DNA from: Cyclobacteriaceae bacterium
GTDB taxonomy: Bacteria; Bacteroidota; Bacteroidia; Cytophagales; Cyclobacteriaceae
Assembly: GCA_026003355.1 (NCBI GenBank)
Contig: BPHC01000007.1
Coordinates: forward strand, 1-64,000
Reading direction: 5' to 3'
Length of the DNA stretch: 64,000 nt
In this document: in pieces, positions 52,755-62,632 of the stretch
Layout: each line of letters starts with the position of its first letter
How positions within the stretch are numbered: position 1 is the first letter of the stretch
Translations under genes and position numbers: made by a program
The notes under the pieces: model-generated
Seen by the model: only the letters and a program-made list of their open reading frames with translations
Databases searched by the model: none
Told to the model about the DNA's origin: nothing

Positions 52755-54152
52755 TTACCTTACCACCTCAAGTCCTTTTCCGAACCATTCGCTGTAACCG
52801 CCTGCATAGTTTTTCACATTGCGGTAACCGTGTTTTGCCAGAATGGAGTAGCCTATGGCCGAGCGGTCGCCTGCCTGGCAATGGATTATTACCGGCTCTG
52901 CTTTTTTGATTTTGTTTAGGTTTTTCTCCAGTGTTCCGATAAATATGTTCTCTGCACCTTTAATGTGGCCAGCCTTGTATTCGGCTGCTCCGCGCAGGTC
53001 AACTATTTGGGTATGGTTGGTTTCCATTGTTTTTTTCAGCTCATCGGTTGATATGAGCTGTACCTTGTCGAGCTGGCGCCCGGCACGGGTCCATACCGAA
53101 ACATCGGGTATGTAGCCGTATATATTGTCCAGGCCTATGCGCATCAGCTTGCGTACCAGGTCATCGTGCTGGCTTTCAGCAGCAATAAGCACAAATGGTT
53201 CGTTATAGTCCATAAACCAGCCCATCCATGTAGCAAACGAGTTGTTGCCCTGAATATTGAGCGTACCGGGTATGAAGCCCTCAGCAAAAGCCTGTTTGGG
53301 GCGGGTATCTACCACCTTCATGCCTTTTTCCAGTGCCGTAATGAATTCTTCATCAGTAAGTTTTTTAAGCCGCGGCACTTCGGTAAGCAGGCTACGGTTT
53401 ACCTTGTTGAGTTTTTTCATCATGGCAAAATAGCGGGGCGGTTCGGGCTGGTCTTCCAGCAGGTATTTCACAAAGCTTTCTTCGTCTTTATAACGAAGCG
53501 CCCAGTTGGCAATTTTTTCGTAGCCAACGGTTGAGCTGGGAACGGCTCCCAGGGCCTTGCCGCAGGCAGAGCCGGCTCCATGGCCGGGCCAAACCTGAAC
53601 GTAATCGGGCAGGGCGTAGAATTTTTTAAGTGATTGATACATCTGCCGGGCCCCTGCCTCTTTGGTACCTGCGAAACCGGCTGCTTCTTCCAGCAGGTCC
53701 GGCCGCCCGACGTCGCCCACAAAAACAAAGTCACCGGTAAAAATCATAACCGGTTTATCGCTGGCCGGCGTGTCGGTAAGCAAGTACGAAATGCTTTCGG
53801 GCGTGTGGCCGGGTGTATGCATTACTTCGAATTTCAGGTTTCCAACCATAAAAGTGGAGCCGTCTTTAAGCCCCACATGGGTAAATTCGTATTGCCAGTC
53901 TTTGCCGCCTTCATCCGACAGATAAAGCTGGCCTCCGGTAAGGGCAGCCAGTTCGCGGGCACCGCTAAGAAAGTCGGCATGGATATGTGTTTCGGCAATG
54001 TGGGTAATGCGCATCTTGTTTTGTTGCGCAATTTCAAGATAGGTATCCACATCGCGCTTGGGGTCAATTACAATGGCTTCGCCTGTGGCCTGGCAACCGA
54101 TGAAATAGCTGGCCTGGGCGAGGGTTTTGTCGTATACGTGCTGGAAGTACAT
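52755..54152 (-). CDS. persulfide dioxygenase-type MBL hydrolase fused to two rhodanese domains
   Basis: The 465-residue protein has a beta-lactamase-fold ETHE1/BlhA-type domain (about 1-240; AETHIHADFLSGARELA for the iron site, VMHTPGHTPESISYLL, GDFVFVGDVGRPDLL), which oxidises glutathione-like persulfides to sulfite. Two rhodanese domains follow. The first (about 255-360) lacks the catalytic cysteine: the loop reads VLIAAESQHDDL. The second (about 370-465) is active in form, with IHCQAGDRSAIGYSIL. ATG 54152 lies just downstream of the CRP/FNR-type promoter. Cytoplasmic; probably clears or uses sulfane sulfur from thiosulfate. Confidence 0.94.
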   Translation of the reverse strand: MYFQHVYDKTLAQASYFIGCQATGEAIVIDPKRDVDTYLEIAQQNKMRITHIAETHIHADFLSGARELAALTGGQLYLSDEGGKDWQYEFTHVGLKDGSTFMVGNLKFEVMHTPGHTPESISYLLTDTPASDKPVMIFTGDFVFVGDVGRPDLLEEAAGFAGTKEAGARQMYQSLKKFYALPDYVQVWPGHGAGSACGKALGAVPSSTVGYEKIANWALRYKDEESFVKYLLEDQPEPPRYFAMMKKLNKVNRSLLTEVPRLKKLTDEEFITALEKGMKVVDTRPKQAFAEGFIPGTLNIQGNNSFATWMGWFMDYNEPFVLIAAESQHDDLVRKLMRIGLDNIYGYIPDVSVWTRAGRQLDKVQLISTDELKKTMETNHTQIVDLRGAAEYKAGHIKGAENIFIGTLEKNLNKIKKAEPVIIHCQAGDRSAIGYSILAKHGYRNVKNYAGGYSEWFGKGLEVVR

Positions 54153-54175: not shown

Positions 54176-54220
54176 CAAAGGTCATAATAAATACACAATC
54201 TGTCCGTGACAGTCGTCACA
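54176..54220 (-). promoter_or_regulatory. promoter of the dioxygenase-rhodanese genes: CRP/FNR-type site plus -7 box
   Basis: The inverted repeat GTGAC-AGTC-GTCAC (54206-54219; full site 54205-54220, coding strand TGTGACGACTGTCACG) is centred 29.5 bp from the 5' edge of the box GACCTTTG (54183-54176). The same spacing occurs at the four other sites of this kind in the window. Start of transcription is predicted near 54170, 18 bases before the ATG. The -7 box equals that of the UspA promoter. Confidence 0.65.
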
Positions 54221-54284
54221 TTATATAAAAAGTTTGCCAGCGAAACCGGTGGAATGGACGTCTTACCGGCAGAACTTTTCAGTT

Positions 54285-54695
54285 TTAGCCTTTGGAATGT
54301 TGCCCGGTTACCGGCTTTTTGAATTGGGCCCACTCAGGCTTGTAGCTGTAGAAAAAGTTGATGTAAATAGCTCTTGAAAGCCGCAGGGTTACGGGAGCCA
54401 GCAATACCGGTATGCTGATCATGGCCATAAGGTACACTGCCATGGCAGGATTGAACAACACGCGCATTGCTACGTATAGGGTTGCAAATAAGGCTACCTG
54501 TAGGGCATAGCTTACGTACATGGCCCCGGTATAAAAGGCTGGCTCGGGCTCATAATTAAGTTTACACACCGGGCATCGTTTGTGCATTTCCATAAATTTT
54601 TTGCTGTATGCTTTCGAGGTAAACAGGCTCCCCTGGTGGCAACGCGGACATTTAAGGTAGAGGACGCTGTACAGTTTTGTTCCACGGTGTATCAT
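54285..54695 (-). CDS. DUF983 membrane protein with N-terminal zinc-ribbon cysteines
   Basis: The 136-residue protein starts with two CxxC pairs (KCPRCHQGSLF and KRCPVCKLNYE) on a short cytoplasmic part, then two helices (about 55-80 and 85-105). This is the DUF983 plan, common in Bacteroidota and alphaproteobacteria; function unknown. It lies between the LysE-like gene (8 bases) and the dioxygenase gene, within the sulfur island and on its strand. Confidence 0.88.
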   Translation of the reverse strand: MIHRGTKLYSVLYLKCPRCHQGSLFTSKAYSKKFMEMHKRCPVCKLNYEPEPAFYTGAMYVSYALQVALFATLYVAMRVLFNPAMAVYLMAMISIPVLLAPVTLRLSRAIYINFFYSYKPEWAQFKKPVTGQHSKG

Positions 54696-54703
54696 AGCGG
54701 TAA

Positions 54704-55318
54704 TTATACATTAAACAAATATCTTAGTAAGCCGATCAGGCCCAAAAGCAGGAGTACTGCTCCGGGCAGAAACTGATATAACCGGTTTTTGGTCATTAGG
54801 TCGGACATGCGGTTGGCCATAGTAGCCAGTAGGCTAAGTAACACCAACACTCCAACCGATGTTCCGAATACATAGCTGTGCACCTGCAAAGAAGTGTTGA
54901 GTTCAATCCAGCTCTGTAACTTGAGGTAGGAGGTTACCGCCACCCAGAAGGGTATGGCCTGGGGGTTGAGCAGGCTAAGGATTAAGCCCTTTACAAAGCC
55001 GCTTTCCTGAAATTTAATTGAAAAGGTTGTAGGCCTGCGGGCCGACCACAAACTAAACATACCAATAAACATCATGACAACGGCTCCGATAAGCCGGAAG
55101 TGTTTAACCAGCATCGGAGAAGCGCTGATGTAGTGCTCAAATTCAACAGCAATCCAGGCATAAGGATATTCTACCAACGCTACGGCCAGGGCAAACCGAA
55201 GGGCTTGGCTCACTTTTTTCTGTAAGCCCATCTGCAACACCAGCACGTTTAACGTTCCGGGCGGAATGGACCCTATAAAACTAATTACAGCACCAATAAC
55301 AAAAGCCTGTAGCAGCAT
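54704..55318 (-). CDS. LysE family translocator-like membrane protein
   Basis: This 204-residue polytopic protein carries LysE/RhtB-family signs: FIGSIPPGTLNVLVLQMGLQKKVSQALRFALAVAL, then FVKGLILSLLNPQAIPFWVAVTSYL. Homologues export amino acids. In this island it may export a sulfur-containing amino acid or similar compound, but nothing in the sequence shows it. It starts 11 bases after the SoxB-like gene's stop. Confidence 0.9.
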   Translation of the reverse strand: MLLQAFVIGAVISFIGSIPPGTLNVLVLQMGLQKKVSQALRFALAVALVEYPYAWIAVEFEHYISASPMLVKHFRLIGAVVMMFIGMFSLWSARRPTTFSIKFQESGFVKGLILSLLNPQAIPFWVAVTSYLKLQSWIELNTSLQVHSYVFGTSVGVLVLLSLLATMANRMSDLMTKNRLYQFLPGAVLLLLGLIGLLRYLFNV

Positions 55319-55329
55319 TACCGGTTTAA

Positions 55330-57138
55330 TTATCTGAACTCATATCCATATCCCATAAGTTGGGTAAGCAGCGTAGCGGGGGCATCGGTAGCTGTGGCGC
55401 GTCCTTCAAGTTTTGGGGCAACCGGAGAATGTTTGGCCAGGTATTCCTCCATAACGCTGTGCAGGGTAATACCCAGGCGTTCGGGCTTGGCAACATCTTC
55501 CATGCGGCAAATGGTGGTGTCGGGGTCGCCTTCGCGTTCACAGGCCACAAAGGTATATAGTTGATCGGGCGCTATTGGTTTGCCTTTTACTTTTATATAA
55601 TTCACTCTTTTGCCGGCTTCGTTGTTAATGGTAAAATTAACTTCCATACCTTTGAACCGTACCACCCAGCCGCCAAAACGCCGGGCCGGATCTTTGGCAA
55701 AAGCATTTTCCAGTTCTCTCTCCATCCAGTCTTTCAATTGCTTACCGGTAACCGTGCCGCGTTTGGCTTCGCTGTCAACCGGCAGCATGCTCCATAGAAA
55801 ATCCATGGTAATATCGGCTACCCCTGTTTTGGGATCGGGCACCAGAGGCGGACAAAAGCGAAAGCCATTGCTCAGCGCAATGTCGGGTTTAAATTTCCAC
55901 ATAATGGCATCGGTTATAAGGTTGTCCATGGGCGTTTCAATTACATAGTAGCGCACCAGTGGGGTTTTGGTTTTGCCAATTACGCGGTCCAGTTCTTCGC
56001 GGTAGGGGGCGCGGGCTTTCTCAACCAGTGCTTTCATCTCTTCGTCTTCGGGGTACTGCTCGGGATCTACATCCAGCAGTGCATACGATTGGTCTTTTAT
56101 TTCACCGTCTTCTACAACCAGATCAAGTTTGGCGATAAATGATCCGAAGGCCCCCGGCTCGGTTACTTTGGTGTACACGCCTGCAACAGGCTCGCGCACG
56201 CGTTCGTGCGTATCAGCACCCAGAATATAGTCAACACCTTTAACAAGGGCCTTATTGGCTAACCCAATTTGCTGGGCAAGTCCCATGTGCGTTAGCAATA
56301 TGATGATATGACAGCCTTCATATTCGCGCAGCAGCCGGATGTATTTGGCAACATTTTTTTCCGGAGGCGTAAACGAAATACCCTCGCTGTAGGCGGGCGA
56401 CTGTCGTTTTGGTGTGAGCGGGTCGTTGTACCCGATGAAGCCCACTTTTACATTGCCGAATCGCCTTATGTAATAGGGCGGAAAAATCAGATCACCGTTA
56501 AACGCATCGTTGGTTTGATGAAACATATTGGCGCAAACCTTGGGACAGTTGTATGAAAACATATCCTTCATCATCATTTCCTTGCCGTACACTACTTCCC
56601 AGTTGCCGGGCAACATAAGGTCATAGCCCATGTTGTTCATCAACTGCACAATAGCTTTTCCCTGGCTGAGGGCGGCTACGCCACTGCCCTGAAAGCAGTC
56701 GCCTCCGTCAATCAGCATGGTGTGCTGAGGGTTTTGTGCACGCAGGCTTTTGATCATGGATTTCAGTACCGCAAAACCCCCGCGTTTTTTGTACACCACC
56801 TGGTTGTTTTCAATAAAAAATTCATCGTGGGTTAACAATTGGGCGTGTATGTCGGCCGTGTGAAGTAAAGTAATATGTGTGGCTTTGCCTTGCCGAACGG
56901 TATTGCTAAGTTTTATTTCGCGGCTGTGCGCGGCAGCATCGGCCTCAAGCAGGGCCGATGCCGGTACCGGTGTTATTAAGCTGCCCGCGCCAAGCGCCAG
57001 AGTTGTTTTTCCTGCCTGGCGTAAAAATTCTCTCCGCGAGCTGCCGGAAGTTAAAATATGCTTTTGCTGGTCTTCGGGTTTTGATTCGATTTGCCTGCAG
57101 GTGTGGCATTTGCAGGTAGTATGGTGTTCGTATAACAT
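55330..57138 (-). CDS. SoxB-like metallophosphatase-family protein (thiosulfohydrolase/5'-nucleotidase superfamily), Tat-exported
   Basis: The 602-residue protein has a twin-arginine signal (SRREFL, residues 34-39, then a hydrophobic stretch to about 60) and a calcineurin-like domain with two-metal motifs: LLHTADIHAQLL, DGGDCFQGSGVAAL, LPGNWEVVYG, LLTHMGL, GADTHE. The GNWE-YG text and the exported form are SoxB-like; C-terminal 5'-nucleotidase domain text (DNLITDAIMWKFKPDIALSN) is also present. SoxB cuts sulfate from cysteine-bound sulfur on SoxY. No soxYZ, soxXA or soxCD is in the window. Odd: a CKCHTC cysteine cluster (9, 11, 14) lies ahead of the Tat motif. A plain nucleotidase is the alternative. 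Confidence 0.8.
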   Translation of the reverse strand: MLYEHHTTCKCHTCRQIESKPEDQQKHILTSGSSRREFLRQAGKTTLALGAGSLITPVPASALLEADAAAHSREIKLSNTVRQGKATHITLLHTADIHAQLLTHDEFFIENNQVVYKKRGGFAVLKSMIKSLRAQNPQHTMLIDGGDCFQGSGVAALSQGKAIVQLMNNMGYDLMLPGNWEVVYGKEMMMKDMFSYNCPKVCANMFHQTNDAFNGDLIFPPYYIRRFGNVKVGFIGYNDPLTPKRQSPAYSEGISFTPPEKNVAKYIRLLREYEGCHIIILLTHMGLAQQIGLANKALVKGVDYILGADTHERVREPVAGVYTKVTEPGAFGSFIAKLDLVVEDGEIKDQSYALLDVDPEQYPEDEEMKALVEKARAPYREELDRVIGKTKTPLVRYYVIETPMDNLITDAIMWKFKPDIALSNGFRFCPPLVPDPKTGVADITMDFLWSMLPVDSEAKRGTVTGKQLKDWMERELENAFAKDPARRFGGWVVRFKGMEVNFTINNEAGKRVNYIKVKGKPIAPDQLYTFVACEREGDPDTTICRMEDVAKPERLGITLHSVMEEYLAKHSPVAPKLEGRATATDAPATLLTQLMGYGYEFR

Positions 57139-57155
57139 GTGCCGGGAGCGATGCT

Positions 57156-57539
57156 TTATTTGTTTACAGGCTTGCCGGCTTTTTTCCAGGCATTAAAGCC
57201 TCCTTCCAGATTATAAACACGTGTAAAGCCCGAAGCAGCAAGTATTTTGGCGGCCGAGCTGCTGCGACCACCGGCAGCACAGTACACATATACCGGCCTG
57301 GTTTTGTCCAATTTTTGAATTTGCTGCCGGAAGTCGCTGCTGTAGTAATCAATTAGAATGGCCCCGGGTATGTAGCCACCTGCAAATTCTTCGGGTGTCC
57401 GTACGTCTAAAATAATTTTACTGGTGTTGTCCTGAAGTTGTTTTTCAAAACGGTTTACATCCAGGTTAACCGTACTTTGCGATGTAGAACATTGGGCGGT
57501 GAGCAGCAGGAGCAGAAGGGGCAGGGTATATCGCATCAT
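57156..57539 (-). CDS. rhodanese-domain lipoprotein
   Basis: The 127-residue product has a lipoprotein signal (LLLLLLTAQC) and one rhodanese domain: KIILDVRTPEEFAGGYIPGAILIDYY, active loop VYVYCAAGGRSSSAAKIL with the catalytic Cys, then VYNLEGGFNAWKKAG. It therefore handles sulfane sulfur in the periplasm. It lies 17 bases from the SoxB-like gene and 12 from the DsrE gene, in one transcript. Confidence 0.93.
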   Translation of the reverse strand: MMRYTLPLLLLLLTAQCSTSQSTVNLDVNRFEKQLQDNTSKIILDVRTPEEFAGGYIPGAILIDYYSSDFRQQIQKLDKTRPVYVYCAAGGRSSSAAKILAASGFTRVYNLEGGFNAWKKAGKPVNK

Positions 57540-57551
57540 AATGCTGAAAAT

Positions 57552-57959
57552 TTAAAAACCAAGTTTGATGTACAGCCATCCGTTTTGCTGCTTGCGAACA
57601 ATTTCGGCCAGCGCATGCGGAACAGTACGTGCAAAAGGAACCAGGTCTGCATGCTTTACATTGCGTTGCGACATGGTGAACTCGCAGGCAGTAAACGTTA
57701 TGCCGGTAAGGCCTTTATGCTGAATGCGCCGCGCATACACCGAATTGTTCTTTAAAAATTCCAGACCCGGACCGTGACAGATTACATCCAATTCGGCATC
57801 GGGAAATTCTTTTTTAAGATTGGTTACCTGGTTGATAACCGATTTGTGCACAAGCGTATCGGCCGACTGGAGATGAAGCACCATGCGGGGTGCCTGTTGT
57901 GCCGTTGCGCACATAGTTATCCAAGCCATTAAACCAAGGAAAAGTATGTATCTTTTCAT
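57552..57959 (-). CDS. exported DsrE-like protein
   Basis: The 135-residue product has a Sec signal (MKRYILFLGLMAWITMCATAQ) then a DsrE/DsrF-like alpha/beta domain: MVLHLQSADTLVHKSVINQVTNLKKEF, LDVICHGPGLEFL, and a cysteine in GITFTACEFTM at the usual position of the sulfur-carrying Cys. DsrE proteins move persulfide sulfur. The signal peptide places it in the periplasm, unlike most DsrE proteins. It is first behind the promoter at 58.0 kb. ATG 57959 or 57968. Confidence 0.87.
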   Translation of the reverse strand: MKRYILFLGLMAWITMCATAQQAPRMVLHLQSADTLVHKSVINQVTNLKKEFPDAELDVICHGPGLEFLKNNSVYARRIQHKGLTGITFTACEFTMSQRNVKHADLVPFARTVPHALAEIVRKQQNGWLYIKLGF

Positions 57960-57973
57960 GGGATTCATGAGTT

Positions 57974-58018
57974 TAAAGATATGAAATTTTTACCCGCAGT
58001 CGTGTGACTTAAATCACA
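57974..58018 (-). promoter_or_regulatory. promoter of the DsrE-rhodanese-SoxB genes: perfect CRP/FNR-type site plus -7 box
   Basis: TGTGA-N6-TCACA at 58003-58018 (coding strand TGTGATTTAAGTCACA) is a perfect consensus CRP/FNR-family site. Its centre is 29.5 bp from the 5' edge of TATCTTTA (57981-57974), a -7 box with one mismatch. Transcription should begin near 57968, which makes ATG 57959 the likelier start. Confidence 0.7.
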
Positions 58019-58024
58019 AATGGT

Positions 58025-59452
58025 TCAGAAGTAATAATCCAGAACAACAGAAAACAGGTGCGTGTAAACCTTATTGTGATAATTGGCGGGCGAAATTTCG
58101 GTATTCCGGTTTAATGGTCCTTTCCAGGTGTATAGTAGATCGGCCTTAAGGCCATGCAAAAATCCACCAAAGCTGTAGCCTGCCCGTAAATTTAGGTGGT
58201 AATAAGAGGGCATGTTGTATTTGTTAAGCCTGTAATTATTAAGAGAAGGCATTTTTGTTATTCCTGACTGTGCGTGGAGGCTTATGGTATGGCGTTTGTT
58301 GAGATAACGAACGTGTTCAAACATAACTGCATGTACGCCTCCGGCTCCTTCAATGCGTTCGCGCCACATAAATGTGTAAAAAGGTTCTACGCCCCACTCG
58401 CGCGGAAACAGGAAACGTCCCTGGCGGGTAATGTGGGTATAGTTTATAAACCACTTTTCGTTGTGTAACAGTTGTGTAAAACCGGTGCGCAGACTTATTG
58501 CAACAGACTTGCTGTTTGAATCAAAATACTGTTCAGAAACCGGCAGGGTGGCAGGGGTAAGTGAGTGCTGACGGATGAACTGCAGGCCGGCAATCCACTC
58601 TTTCAACCGGTATTGTTTTTTCCATTGGGTTTGCATAAATACCGTGTTAAACATATTTTCTGCCAGGTAATTCCATGCCTGCACTTCAATATGGTTGACC
58701 GGCATGCTGGTTAGATTAAGAATAATTATGCCGTTTGAGTTGGCCCTGCCGGCATAGTCGGCCGGTGAGCCGTCAACGGCCCGGCCTTGCGGATATACTC
58801 CTGCCGACTGGCTAATGGTGTACCATCTTACCGTTCCGCGGGGTGAGGTGCGCCATAAATATCCGCCCTTCAGCTTAATTTTCTTCAATTCGTTCCACTC
58901 CGCCCACAGGCCTTCCTGCAGATTGGGTCGCATTCGTCCGTCCTGCAGGTTTATTAGGGGTGTTTTCAGGTGGAACTTTCCTAACTGTATAAAACTTTTG
59001 GTGTTTTCCGACAGGTAATAACGCAGATAGAGGTCTTCCAGGCGGTCCAGATCGGAATGATTATCCGGATTGGTTATATCGAACAGTTGAATTTCGTATC
59101 GGTTCGAAAAAGGTGGGCCGGGATGGAGTACCGAGGAAGACAGGTTGTAAATGGTGAAGCCGGATAAGCCCGCCTGAAAGTTCTTTATTACCGGAGAAAA
59201 GTACGCCAGCCCGGCTCCGGTTGCCAGCGCATAGTAATCGGGGTAATCGGCATAATTAACCGTGCCCATAAAGAACGTGCGAAGGTGGCCTTCGAAAACG
59301 CCCATGCCATGCAGTATGTTGCACAGGCTGTCGTTTTGCAGACATTGTTTGTGAAGGATAGTTCGCCTTACTGACCATGATGGATCCTGGTGCTGGGCTG
59401 CTGCCATCTTAAAGAGAATCATCATTCCCGGTATCAACAGGGATTTCTTCAT
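58025..59452 (-). CDS. outer-membrane porin-like beta-barrel (OprD-like)
   Basis: The 475-residue product has a short signal peptide (to about MAAAQ) and a barrel with many amphipathic strands ending LFSVVLDYYF, a terminal Phe as in outer-membrane barrels. Segments such as YLSENTKSFIQLGKFHLKTPLINLQDGRM and GGYLWRTSPRGTVRWY recall OprD-family porins. It stands between the TsdA-like gene and the DsrE promoter. A role in thiosulfate or other anion entry is inferred only from position. Confidence 0.78.
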   Translation of the reverse strand: MKKSLLIPGMMILFKMAAAQHQDPSWSVRRTILHKQCLQNDSLCNILHGMGVFEGHLRTFFMGTVNYADYPDYYALATGAGLAYFSPVIKNFQAGLSGFTIYNLSSSVLHPGPPFSNRYEIQLFDITNPDNHSDLDRLEDLYLRYYLSENTKSFIQLGKFHLKTPLINLQDGRMRPNLQEGLWAEWNELKKIKLKGGYLWRTSPRGTVRWYTISQSAGVYPQGRAVDGSPADYAGRANSNGIIILNLTSMPVNHIEVQAWNYLAENMFNTVFMQTQWKKQYRLKEWIAGLQFIRQHSLTPATLPVSEQYFDSNSKSVAISLRTGFTQLLHNEKWFINYTHITRQGRFLFPREWGVEPFYTFMWRERIEGAGGVHAVMFEHVRYLNKRHTISLHAQSGITKMPSLNNYRLNKYNMPSYYHLNLRAGYSFGGFLHGLKADLLYTWKGPLNRNTEISPANYHNKVYTHLFSVVLDYYF

Positions 59453-59484
59453 TTTTTAACTTGGATTTACGGGTTGTTTATTGG

Positions 59485-60531
59485 TTAATGATTAGATAGG
59501 GCCCTGCGTTTTTTAAGTATGGGCTTAAAGGGGCCATACTTGTGCTGCACTTCGCTGAAGCCATCGGTATATGGCCCGAAGGGATGATCAACGGGCTTTT
59601 GCGAAATGTCGGGCCAGTCGTGGGTAATATCCATCTGCGGGCGCGGCATGGAGTTTACATAGGCGGCAATGTGCCAGGCCTCTTCGTCAGTAAGCTGCGG
59701 TTGCCGGTAGGTGGCGCCTAACGGCATGTTAGCCTTAATATAGCCGGCAAAGCGCGACAGCCGGTACAGGCCGGCCCCGTTGTTATAACTGTGCTTTCCC
59801 CACAAGGGGGGGTAAACATATCCGGCAAAATCCGTGGCCGCTACTCCTTCGCCATCTGCACCATGGCAAACGGTGCATTTTTGCTCATACAAGAGTTTGC
59901 CCTTCACCGGGTCGGCCGGAAAATCCATATAAGCCAGTTCAACCAGTCCTGCTCCTTTGGGGGTTGTACCTTTGGGCACGTCTTTGCCCAGCCACATCAG
60001 GTAGGCCACAATGGCCTTCATTTCGCGAGAGTCTTTGGGAAGGGGTTTACCATTCAGGCTTCGCTCAAAGCAGTCGTTAACTCTCTTTTCAATGGACTCG
60101 ATGGTTCCTGAACGCGCACGGAATTTAGGATAGGTAGAAGCCACGGCACTATAGTTGTTGCCAAACGGTTTGGTGCCGGCATCCAAATGGCAGTTTTGGC
60201 AGTTCATGCCATTACTTATGGGCATTACCTTTCCTTGAGGGCCGAGGTAACCGGCTGTATGCACAATCAGTTCCCGTCCATAACGAATCAGCGCGCCTTC
60301 TTCATTATCCGGGATGGTTGAAGGGTTGGGAGCAAGCCAAACGTCAGGAGCAGGTGCTTCCGGAGGCGGCTTTTGAGCAGAGTTTTTTTTCGATAGGCGA
60401 GCCATAACTTTTTCAGGTCCGTAAACGGAAATAACCATTACTGCTCCGATAAAACCAACCAGCAGCAGCATGAGTGCCACCAGCAGGTTAATAGCCCTGA
60501 TAAAAGGCCTTATGGTAAGCTGTTTTTCCAT
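59485..60531 (-). CDS. tsdA: TsdA-like dihaem c-type cytochrome, probable thiosulfate dehydrogenase
   Basis: TsdA oxidises two thiosulfates to tetrathionate (or the reverse) in the periplasm. The 348-residue protein has one N-terminal membrane helix (about 11-37) and two haem c sites: Cys111-Cys114-His115 and Cys219-Cys222-His223. Text between them, DAGTKPFGNNYSAVASTYPKFRARSG and KRVNDCFERSLNG, is diagnostic; Cys154 is the expected axial haem-1 ligand. The helix anchors it to the inner membrane facing out. It lies between the YeeE pair and the porin gene. Electron acceptor not seen. Confidence 0.88.
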   Translation of the reverse strand: MEKQLTIRPFIRAINLLVALMLLLVGFIGAVMVISVYGPEKVMARLSKKNSAQKPPPEAPAPDVWLAPNPSTIPDNEEGALIRYGRELIVHTAGYLGPQGKVMPISNGMNCQNCHLDAGTKPFGNNYSAVASTYPKFRARSGTIESIEKRVNDCFERSLNGKPLPKDSREMKAIVAYLMWLGKDVPKGTTPKGAGLVELAYMDFPADPVKGKLLYEQKCTVCHGADGEGVAATDFAGYVYPPLWGKHSYNNGAGLYRLSRFAGYIKANMPLGATYRQPQLTDEEAWHIAAYVNSMPRPQMDITHDWPDISQKPVDHPFGPYTDGFSEVQHKYGPFKPILKKRRALSNH

Positions 60532-60555
60532 TGTTGGAAGAACGGCCTGCTTACA

Positions 60556-61089
60556 TTAATGCGGAAGTTTTTCACGTAACCGTCCGTACACCCAGGTGCC
60601 TGTTATGGCACTCAGCAAAGTGATGATTACTGCCAGAAAACCACTACCAATCTGCGCAAAGAGTGGGCCCGGACAGGCACCGGTAAGGGCCCAGCCCAAG
60701 CCAAACAACAGGCCACCGATTACATTGCCCCAGTGAAATTCCTTTTTATGAAATACCACCGTTTCTCCCTGCAGGGTTTTCAGGTTGAAACGTTTAATTA
60801 TCCATACAGATATGATTCCTGTTATTACTGCCGTTCCGATTACTCCGTACATGTGGAAGGAATGCAGACGGAACATTTCCTGTATGCGGTACCATGAAAT
60901 AATCTCGGCCTTAACAAATACAATTCCGAAAAGAATGCCCACCACGGTATATTTAAGATTGCTTGTCCAGTTTTCCCGTGCAAGCTGGTCGTTAGGTGCC
61001 TCGCACTCCAGCGGATGCTGAACCACAACGGGTTGCTCTTCGGTGGTGGTAATGAGTTCTATATTTTCTTTCGTTAGCGTTTTCATCAT
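60556..61089 (-). CDS. YeeE/YedE family protein, C-terminal half (DUF6691 type)
   Basis: This 177-residue protein has four helices and one YeeE/YedE repeat: GGLLFGLGWALTGACPGPLFAQIGSG, with the conserved Cys in TGACPGP that passes thiosulfate through the pore in YeeE. A 55-residue polar N-terminus is not part of the family domain. With the adjacent protein at 61103-61669 it makes a two-subunit equivalent of full-length YeeE, so the pair is a probable thiosulfate (or sulfur compound) importer. Confidence 0.9.
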   Translation of the reverse strand: MMKTLTKENIELITTTEEQPVVVQHPLECEAPNDQLARENWTSNLKYTVVGILFGIVFVKAEIISWYRIQEMFRLHSFHMYGVIGTAVITGIISVWIIKRFNLKTLQGETVVFHKKEFHWGNVIGGLLFGLGWALTGACPGPLFAQIGSGFLAVIITLLSAITGTWVYGRLREKLPH

Positions 61090-61102
61090 TCAAGTAAATT
61101 AT

Positions 61103-61669
61103 TCAGATGAGTTTCATTAACCAGGGAAAGATGAGGTGAACCATAATAAAGCCTCCGGCCATAAAGCAACAGGTGGCCACCAACGAGGGCCATTGCAGTG
61201 CAGACAGCCCCATAATGGAATGGCCCGAAGTGCAGCCGCCCGCATAACGCGTGCCGAAGCCCACCAGAAAACCGCCAACAACCAAAAACACCAAACCTTT
61301 AAGCGAGAACAGGTGCTCTGTACTGAAAATGGAAGCCGGCATAAGCTGATGGTCAGTTTCAATATTTAATGCGCGCAGGTCGTTAACAGTTTGCTCGGCA
61401 ACCTGTATCGGTTCGGGGTTGCTCAAAAACTGCGTGGCCATAAAGCCACCTATAAATATACCTCCTGCAAAGAAGAGGTTCCAGGCTTCCCTGCGCCAGT
61501 CGTACTGAAAGAAAGGAATACGGGCCGGAAAGCAGGCAGCACAAATATGCCTAAGGGACGAGGAAATGCCGAAATGTTTGTTGCCTAGCAGCAGCAGTGC
61601 CGGCACGGTTAATCCTATAAGCACTCCGGCCACATACCATGGCCATGGTTGCCTGATGGTTTCTATCAT
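61103..61669 (-). CDS. YeeE/YedE family protein, N-terminal half
   Basis: The 188-residue product starts [20 protein letters not shown] and has the family motif [24 protein letters not shown] (Cys in GGCTSG) near the C-terminal third. ATG 61669 is chosen because ATG 61699 lies close behind the -7 box (61697-61704) and the sequence in between is not family-like. It precedes the DUF6691-type half by 13 bases. Confidence 0.92.
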
Positions 61670-61696
61670 ACTATCGGGGGTTAGTTTATTACAGAG

Positions 61697-61741
61697 CAAA
61701 TTTCAAATCCTGATTTTTGTCAGTCGGTAACTTTAATCACA
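61697..61741 (-). promoter_or_regulatory. promoter of the YeeE-TsdA genes: CRP/FNR-type site plus -7 box
   Basis: TGTGATTAAAGTTACC on the coding strand (61741-61726) matches the TGTGAY-N4-GTYACA pattern with one outer mismatch. Its centre is 29.5 bp from the 5' edge of GAAATTTG (61704-61697), whose TTTG falls at the same place as in the other four. Transcription start near 61691, which excludes ATG 61699 for the first gene. Confidence 0.6.
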
Positions 61742-61761
61742 CTTCCCATCGGGTGTTTGGT

Positions 61762-62553
61762 TTAGAAAAATACCTCTTTAATAACAATGTACGCACCCAT
61801 AACCAGCACAAACCAGCCAAAGGCGGGCTTTAGCTTTTCGTTGGATATAAAACGGCTCAGGTAACTGCCGGCCAGGATGCCGGCAATTGAAAATGCCGAA
61901 AAAAGCAGCATAAAGCCGTAATCAATGGGCTGTCCGGCTCCCAGGTCACCGGTAAAGCCAATGAGCGATTTGAGGGCGATGATGACCAGAGAAGTTCCTA
62001 CGGCCTGTTTCATGGGCAAACCGGCCAGCAACACCAGGGCAGGAATAATCAGAAAACCTCCGCCGGCCCCCACCAATCCGGTCAAGCCACCCACCAGCAG
62101 TCCTTCGGCAAATATCAACGGGTAATTCTGTTTATTTCCTGCTCTTTCTCTGCCCGGGCGGCCAGGGCGTATCATGGAGTAACTGGCGCCCAGCATAAGC
62201 AGGGCAAAGAGCAACATGAGCAGCGTGCCTTTTGCTACCTCCACCTGCCCGGCCTGAAAAACCGGGTCTGGAATATGGGGTACAGCAAACTTGCGCACGG
62301 CATAAACCGCTGCAATGGAAGGTAACCCAAAAACAAGAGCGGTCTTAAGCCTTACATTGCCTGCCCGGAAATGGCTGAATGAACCTATAAGGCTGGTGAG
62401 GCCAACCACAAACAAAGAATAGGCCGTAGCCAGCACCGGGTCCACACCAAATAAATAAACCAATATAGGAACCGTTAAAATGGAGCCTCCTCCGCCAATT
62501 AAACCCAGAGAAAGGCCCATTATTACAGATGCTGCGTATCCCAATACTTCCAT
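61762..62553 (-). CDS. TSUP family permease (TauE/SafE), putative sulfite/sulfur compound exporter
   Basis: The 263-residue polytopic protein has both TSUP half-repeats: [19 protein letters not shown] and [22 protein letters not shown]. It heads the sulfur island. With a dioxygenase that makes sulfite downstream, sulfite export is a fair inference. Preceded by its own CRP/FNR-type promoter; the YeeE promoter lies between it and the next gene. Confidence 0.92.
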
Positions 62554-62587
62554 CGGTAAGTTAGCTTTAATTTAACAAATAAAGCTG

Positions 62588-62632
62588 CAAAGCTACCAGC
62601 GTTCCCGTTCGGGCTCTGTAACCTGAGTCACA
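62588..62632 (-). promoter_or_regulatory. promoter of the TauE gene: CRP/FNR-type site plus -7 box
   Basis: TGTGACTCAGGTTACA on the coding strand (62632-62617) sits inside an 18-bp inverted repeat (62616-62633) with one mismatch. TAGCTTTG at 62595-62588 matches TAnnTTTG in full, and its 5' edge is 29.5 bp from the site centre. Predicted start near 62582, so the site centre is near -42, the class II activator position. No -33 box is seen. Confidence 0.72.

Follow-up and report, generated by a model that had tools for sequence, protein, structure and literature searches.

The 64,000-nucleotide stretch analysed here (the window) covers positions 1 to 64,000 of contig BPHC01000007.1 from a Cyclobacteriaceae bacterium and carries an island of sulfur-metabolism genes on its minus strand. 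Four promoters of this island combine a CRP-type palindrome with a -7 box at one fixed spacing, and comparison with related genomes supports, at the level of sequence, the view that Bacteroidota possess a conserved sulfur-metabolism regulon of the class II CRP type, for which a candidate regulator can be named. We consider it probable that a Bacteroidota CRP-fold activator of thiosulfate and persulfide metabolism acts at these class II promoters, and that it is the protein encoded at G000:C4:19361-19981 of the source assembly (G000), hereafter the C4 regulator. The promoter elements are as follows.

62617..62632, minus strand: CRP-type site 1, TGTGACTCAGGTTACA, 5' of the TauE/SafE gene
62588..62595, minus strand: -7 box TAGCTTTG, 21 bp past site 1
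61726..61741, minus strand: CRP-type site 2, TGTGATTAAAGTTACC, 5' of the YeeE-YeeE-TsdA-porin run
61697..61704, minus strand: -7 box GAAATTTG, 21 bp past site 2
58003..58018, minus strand: CRP-type site 3, TGTGATTTAAGTCACA, 0 mismatches to TGTGAYN4RTCACA, 5' of DsrE-rhodanese-SoxB
57974..57981, minus strand: -7 box TATCTTTA, 21 bp past site 3
54205..54220, minus strand: CRP-type site 4, TGTGACGACTGTCACG, 5' of the persulfide dioxygenase (PDO)-rhodanese gene
54176..54183, minus strand: -7 box GACCTTTG, 21 bp past site 4

The initial annotation had placed the four sites and boxes at these coordinates, with the site centre 29.5 bp from the 5' edge of an 8-bp box ending in TTTG or TTTA, and this observation is confirmed: 21 bp separate the 16-bp site from the 8-bp box at all four promoters. 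The sites carry 0, 1, 1 and 2 mismatches to the 16-bp palindrome TGTGAYN4RTCACA, and their half-sites are of the CRP type (TGTGA-N6-TYACA), not the FNR type. The window contains four copies of the pattern TGTGAYNNNNGTYAC (TGTGAY-N4-GTYAC) against a mean of 0.06 in shuffled sequence, with none of 100 shuffles reaching four or more, and the composite of site, gap and box was found four times at ≤1 mismatch where 0.01 was expected. A TTTR offset common to four positions arose in 1 of 200,000 draws when these were taken 60-150 bp 5' of 18 minus-strand open reading frames, and in none of 200,000 draws from random positions.

Across the whole source assembly (2.76 Mb, 15 contigs, 95.4% complete), the exact composite occurs four times, always at the window promoters, and its reversed control not once; the initial annotation had named equal frequency in coding DNA as grounds against the proposal, and the exact form is confined to the four promoters. 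The looser 15-mer TGTGAYNNNNRTYAC gave nine matches at eight places, four of them the window sites. Three of the other four places lie within open frames of 216-618 aa, and TTTR at the required distance is lacking from all four.

The composite extends to relatives. Across 196 Cyclobacteriaceae genomes, TGTGAYN4RTYAC-N26-TTTR occurred 276 times in 119 genomes, compared with 40 times in 35 genomes for the reversed control. When the gap was lengthened by 5 bp, 73 matches in 64 genomes were found, with 41 in the corresponding reversed control (both counted by eye), and several of the 73 resemble one conserved coding sequence. In a phylum sample of 395 genomes, a stricter composite including the full consensus box TANNTTTG was counted by eye 45 times in 37 genomes, and its control gave none. 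A combination of chance palindromes and shared upstream composition bias would fit the composite at ≤2 mismatches, which is no commoner than its reversed control in the source genome (47 vs 52); it would not fit the exact composites, which outnumber their controls in genome, family and phylum sample, or their retention in orthologous promoters, and we regard it as vanishingly improbable.

Spacing was assessed in 17 named loci picked by the regulator protein only, which contain 13 sites at ≤1 mismatch and thus 26 arms. TTTG stood at the predicted offset in 7 of these arms and one base further in 2, against a mean of 0.16 at other offsets. With 20 fetched regions added, it stood at the predicted offset in 29 of 90 arms and in at most three at any other offset; as these regions were partly picked for composites, only the 7/26 figure is unbiased. 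The first two box letters, which lie outside the test, were TA in 14 of the 29 arms, GA in 10, CA in 4 and CT in 1. Composite and regulator also occur together: the composite was present in 117 of the 176 genomes in which the regulator was matched, versus 2 of the other 20 (kinship ignored). In at least 17 genomes, judged by eye, a composite lies ≤100 bp from the regulator gene, either 5' of it or between it and a neighbour. The two genomes with composites and no regulator match, G132 (99% complete) and G157 (58%), have two composites each.

In Flavobacterium psychrophilum, according to the available part of PMC9723704, the -7 box TAnnTTTG extends from -12 to -5. Together with the 21-bp gap, this would set the sites at -49 to -34, centred at -41.5. 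A centre at -41.5 is the class II position of Escherichia coli CRP and the classical activator geometry, and the four promoters appear to share it, with start sites predicted from the F. psychrophilum box. In the mechanism that we propose, a dimeric CRP-fold regulator would bind TGTGAY-N4-RTYACA centred at -41.5, directly 5' of RNA polymerase positioned at a TAnnTTTG-like -7 box, and would make up for the missing -33 contact, as in a class II promoter adapted to the Bacteroidota sigma factor. The bound protein, in this genome the C4 regulator, would jointly switch on thiosulfate uptake and oxidation (TauE, YeeE, TsdA and porin), the DsrE/rhodanese/SoxB genes and PDO. The earlier prediction of a single CRP/FNR-family regulator near -42 draws support from orthologous geometry, enrichment over controls, co-occurrence and the one regulator gene found. 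The sites could instead be operators at which the protein represses, as do the persulfide regulators SqrR, CstR, BigR and SoxR in the available parts of PMC9774590 and PMC10451225. However, a site centred at -41.5 covers neither the -7 box nor the start, and the base-exact offset is not required for repression; we consider this very unlikely and retain activation as the preferred mode of action.

The genes behind the promoters are listed below.

61762..62553, minus strand: TauE/SafE-family permease (Pfam TauE, 1.4e-42)
61103..61669, minus strand: YeeE/YedE-type sulfur (thiosulfate) transporter, half 1 (Pfam Sulf_transp, 8.4e-16)
60556..61089, minus strand: YeeE/YedE-type transporter, half 2 (Sulf_transp/DUF6691)
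59485..60531, minus strand: TsdA/SoxA-type di-haem cytochrome c (Pfam SoxA-TsdA_cyt-c, 1.1e-11, plus Cytochrom_C)
58025..59452, minus strand: OprD-like outer-membrane porin (Pfam OprD, 2.8e-7)
57552..57968, minus strand: DsrE-like protein (Pfam DsrE, 8.8e-4, below its cut-off)
57156..57539, minus strand: rhodanese-domain protein (Pfam Rhodanese, 3e-24)
55330..57138, minus strand: SoxB-like protein (NCBIfam SoxB, 1.4e-86, 291 bits, below the 550-bit curated cut-off)
52755..54152, minus strand: metallo-beta-lactamase (MBL)-fold plus rhodanese, PDO-like protein (Pfam Lactamase_B, 1.8e-13; Rhodanese, 1.7e-30)

Because the SoxB and DsrE matches fall below their cut-offs, these two names hold at the family level only. 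The DsrE gene probably starts at its second ATG (57959), since the box ends only 5 nt before the first one; the second ATG opens what looks by eye like a signal peptide.

Orthologous islands retain this arrangement. Loci L140 and L142 encode orthologues of TauE, YeeE1/2, TsdA (72 and 75% identical), the porin, DsrE, SoxB (74 and 75%) and PDO, and the 13-kb locus L136 those of TauE, YeeE1/2, TsdA, the porin and PDO. The combination of site, 21-bp gap and box is conserved 5' of TauE in L136, L140, L141 and L142, and 5' of DsrE in L140 and L142. The orthologous YeeE1 promoter of L140 and L142 reads TGTAAC-N4-GTTACG followed, after 21 bp, by TATCTTTG, and no counterpart of site 2 was seen at the YeeE1 promoter of L136. 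Site and box at an equal gap also precede the PDO gene, 72-75% identical, in L136, L142 and G033 (L064/L140; 72%), as well as a rhodanese-PDO pair in L141. Two further features were noted in these promoters. Within the 21-bp gap of site 2 (61711-61722) lies a short inverted repeat, TGAC-N4-ATCA, with a counterpart TGAC-N4-GTCA in L140 and L142, which may represent an additional, weaker site that overlaps the promoter. Between YeeE2 and TsdA, L140 and L142 contain a further CRP-type site followed by a box, and this pair is absent from the window.

A search of the source genome with two Pfam families found one gene with both CRP-type domains, on the minus strand at 19361-19981 of contig C4. It encodes 206 aa with a cyclic nucleotide (cNMP)-binding domain (PF00027) and a Crp-type helix-turn-helix (HTH) domain (PF13545), both above cut-off; a second cNMP-domain match falls in a 1070-aa frame (C1), and a second, weak HTH match (C5) is below cut-off. 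The GTG start giving 206 aa was chosen because the longer open frame runs into a tRNA-Leu gene; in the extracted locus, the regulator gene (L014:7362-7982) starts 39 bp after tRNA-Leu (caa) (L014:8022-8106). The 500 bp 5' of the regulator gene contain no autoregulatory site at ≤2 mismatches. The initial annotation had suggested seeking a CRP/FNR-family gene near sulfur or haem genes. The CRP/FNR-type gene found here is outside the window and unlinked to the sulfur island, and its relatives do adjoin sulfur genes: in 11 of the 17 named loci a gene for TauE, PDO, rhodanese or YeeE lies no more than ~400 bp away, the loci with no such gene in that range being L022, L026, L029, L034, L035 and L036. 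Where C4-type relatives stand beside TauE or PDO, site and box occur at the same gap in L023, L028, L033 and L132, and one base further apart in L024 and L031.

The recognition helix matches the sites. In an alignment of 55 distinct homologues, the equivalents of R180, E181 and R185 are present in 55, 52 and 55 sequences, respectively, and the C4 regulator has all three. According to the available part of PMC1274295, R180 is associated with G3 of the site and E181 with A6, in keeping with a TGTGA half-site. As regards the CRP/FNR alternative raised at the outset, site and recognition helix together indicate that DNA is recognised in the CRP manner. Another CRP/FNR protein, missing from the assembly through loss or a gap, might control the island and leave the C4 regulator to serve other genes, an idea that draws on the incompleteness of the assembly and on the CRP gene beside TauE in L140-L142, which represents another subfamily. 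Against it stand the single gene found to have both domains, the C4-type relatives that adjoin TauE or PDO and have a site and a box there, and recognition residues that are identical in the two subfamilies, and we judge it quite unlikely. Three known types of regulator were rejected for the C4 regulator. In the alignment with 4bh9, the homologue profile has A and E at the columns of E72 and R82, which we take to be cAMP-contact positions of CRP; these changes in the cAMP-contact cassette rule out a cAMP-CRP orthologue, although R180/E181/R185 are kept. FNR has a [4Fe-4S] cysteine set and TTGAT-type sites, and an FNR-type regulator is ruled out by the presence of two cysteines only, both in the cNMP domain, and by the TGTGA sites. 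HcpR2 is ruled out by E181 instead of Pro and by TGTGA instead of GTAACnnnnGTTAC.

The two cysteines, the only ones in the C4 regulator, form a C-x5-C motif within the former cAMP cassette of the cNMP domain. The first is present in all 55 homologues and the second (+6) in 49. In a model of the L022 protein (pLDDT 85.8), which among CRP-family structures best matches 4ev0 (TM 0.75), the first cysteine sits just before a short helix and the second inside it. The best 50 rows of a Foldseek search against the PDB are CRP/FNR-type proteins and point to no single ligand; the nearest solved sequence to the regulator is 3dv8, in which both cysteines are present. Persulfide sensing by the C4 regulator is plausible, the cysteines in the former cAMP cassette being the putative sensors of sulfane sulfur. 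It is the simplest guess given the target genes, and it is made chemically reasonable by the Crp-like protein A1S_1182 of Acinetobacter baumannii, which in sulfide-exposed cells is persulfidated at a conserved cysteine opposite the ligand pocket (PMC7315123, available part). A1S_1182 differs in being close to cAMP-type Crp/Vfr, and the same part of that paper assigns it no sulfur regulon.

Target genes were classified for 31 composite instances in 30 loci, one locus per genome, out of the 276 family matches. Sulfur, thiol or regulator genes follow 27 of the 31. Sulfur or island-type genes account for 20 (SQR 4, PDO 3, TauE 2, YeeE 1, rhodanese 5, porin 4 and DUF2892-like 1), and the remaining 11 comprise thioredoxin-type genes (5), the regulator itself (2) and other or unrecognised genes (4). 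Some labels were assigned by eye, in part from N-terminal sequence (SQR in L046 and L051; thioredoxin in L050, L053 and L064; DUF2892-like in L067, L167 and L178); SQR is backed in L044 and, by a Pyr_redox_2 match alone, in L056, and thioredoxin in L039 and L040. The porin class denotes 34-39% identity to the island porin, and in L050, L051 and L060 the gene begins 181-282 bp beyond the box.

The same promoters and regulator family might answer to a signal other than persulfide, through a sensor of haem, redox state, NO or oxygen that places sulfur genes within a respiratory or redox response, as in PgRsp of Porphyromonas gingivalis. PgRsp is described in the available part of PMC6955866 as a haem-binding Bacteroidota Crp/Fnr protein of a 'novel family'; it was modelled on 3DV8, the nearest solved sequence to the C4 regulator too, and the C-x-[LM] motif of the C4 family is matched by Cys76-x-Met78 of PgRsp. 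Some composites outside the Cyclobacteriaceae also precede hemerythrin/ScdA and cytochrome-assembly genes (L173, L174). On the other side, the predominance of sulfur, thiol and regulator genes behind the family composites argues against a haem or redox sensor; moreover, single changes at Cys76, Met78 or His85 of PgRsp kept haem bound, and haem was without effect on the DNA shift (PMC6955866, available part). We hold such a signal to be possible but on balance unlikely, and continue to favour sulfane sulfur.

Several observations weigh against a sulfur regulon under the C4 regulator. Given the lack of excess at ≤2 mismatches in the source genome, the claim rests on the exact form of the composite, and a larger regulon obtained there by relaxed matching was dropped. 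Only one of the four window boxes, TAGCTTTG, matches the full consensus TANNTTTG, and the other three depart from it. The closest relative of the C4 regulator (L022, 76% identical) has no site at ≤1 mismatch in 18.6 kb and no adjacent sulfur gene. The CRP gene linked to the island in L140-L142 belongs to another subfamily and shares 36-37% identity with the C4 protein, so the C4-type regulator counts as unlinked here, and at 95.4% completeness a second regulator could be missing from the assembly. The second cysteine is absent or shifted in L033, L141, L142, L144, L145 and L146 (+9 in L141 and L142, both island-linked, and +7 in L145). The exact composite is lacking in 59 of the 176 genomes with a regulator match, including G177 (regulator 65% identical) and G194 (52%, same genus); G194 has a one-mismatch site 21 bp 5' of TAGGTTTG (L135). 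Finally, island-type genes stand downstream in only 12 of 28 new loci of the phylum sample: PDO (3), TauE (1), porin (3), SulP (1) and DUF2892-like (1) in nine, and in three a DUF983 gene, a kind also present in the window's island. Among the other 16 are peroxiredoxin, DoxX, outer-membrane efflux, Pyr_redox, carbonic anhydrase, hemerythrin/ScdA, cytochrome-assembly and unrecognised genes, and outside the family the site is probably common to other CRP-type proteins.

Regulator relatives were also found on plasmids. An annotated Pontibacter akesuensis plasmid (L180) contains five sites (≤1 mismatch) in 12.5 kb, all with a TTTG box 21 bp on; they precede two rhodanese genes, trxB, a TauE/SafE gene and an MBL-fold gene, and the cluster also encodes a 50%-identical regulator. 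The Persicobacter plasmid stretch (L182) showed neither sites nor sulfur neighbours. On the alphaproteobacterial plasmids of Ruegeria (L181) and Paracoccus (L183), a 30-31%-identical Crp/Fnr gene, whose product has a similar C-x5-C motif, lies directly 5' of a YeeE-DUF6691-MBL-sulfurtransferase-SulP run, in Paracoccus with a DUF2892 gene first. At ≤1 mismatch, the L183 stretch contains no site, and L181 one, which lies 3 kb off beside a further Crp/Fnr gene and lacks a TTTG box, with none by the sulfur genes. A GTGAC-ATT-GTCAC repeat is present 5' of YeeE in L181.

Our broadest proposal is tentative, and we rate it somewhat below an even chance: Bacteroidota, and with other sites some Alphaproteobacteria, may use a CRP-fold one-component, persulfide-responsive class II activator in which the cAMP cassette has turned into a sulfane-sulfur sensor built on cysteine, as the lineage's equivalent of SqrR, CstR and FisR. 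Promoters and regulator together resemble the class II system of E. coli cAMP-CRP in their TGTGA-N6-TCACA half-sites, their centre at -41.5 and R180/E181/R185, but differ in having a -7 box in place of -10/-35, in lacking the cAMP-contact residues and in serving sulfur genes. Desulfovibrio HcpR shares the site wTGTGAnnnnnnTCACAw and R180, whereas its targets are hcp/frdX and, in Desulfovibrio, sulfate-reduction loci; HcpR2 has GTAACnnnnGTTAC and Pro181 (PMC1274295, available part). PgRsp, likened here by description and not by sequence, is autoregulated and perhaps belongs to the same family as the C4 regulator; it has been studied as a haem/redox sensor with hmu and bcp as targets, and the available part of PMC6955866 describes no sulfur regulon for it. 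CrpPg of P. gingivalis, also likened by description, is a cAMP-independent Crp homologue in whose mutant trxA is among the most strongly down-regulated genes (PMC12040651, available part). SqrR, BigR and SoxR (ArsR), CstR (CsoR) and FisR control sulfide and sulfur-oxidation genes via cysteine chemistry but belong to protein families other than that of the C4 regulator, and all but FisR are repressors (PMC9774590 and PMC10451225, available parts).

The open-access papers searched, covered by titles and abstract openings and with subscription papers mostly outside that coverage, yielded no description of this regulon. If our reading is correct, Bacteroidota would have a base-exact sulfur regulon with its control protein, and class II CRP-type activation would work with the unusual -7 box of the phylum. 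How these bacteria sense sulfide, thiosulfate and persulfide could then be addressed directly, using a single protein and the four promoters described here.

Two of the ≤2-mismatch matches in the source genome precede gene kinds that follow exact composites in relatives. At G000:C10 (L177:3498-3751), a degenerate site GGTAACCAAAGTCACG has TTTG at the right offset before a thioredoxin-like frame ending after 66 aa. At G000:C12 (L178:2907-3273), the site CGTGACTAAAGTTACC lies 21 bp 5' of TAATTTAG, followed by a frame of 31 aa and then by one for a membrane protein of 69 aa, a kind that also stands behind exact composites in L067 and L167. Separately, one 45-base stretch is identical at G000:C3:21962-22006 and G000:C5:172366-172410 and therefore represents a repeated element.

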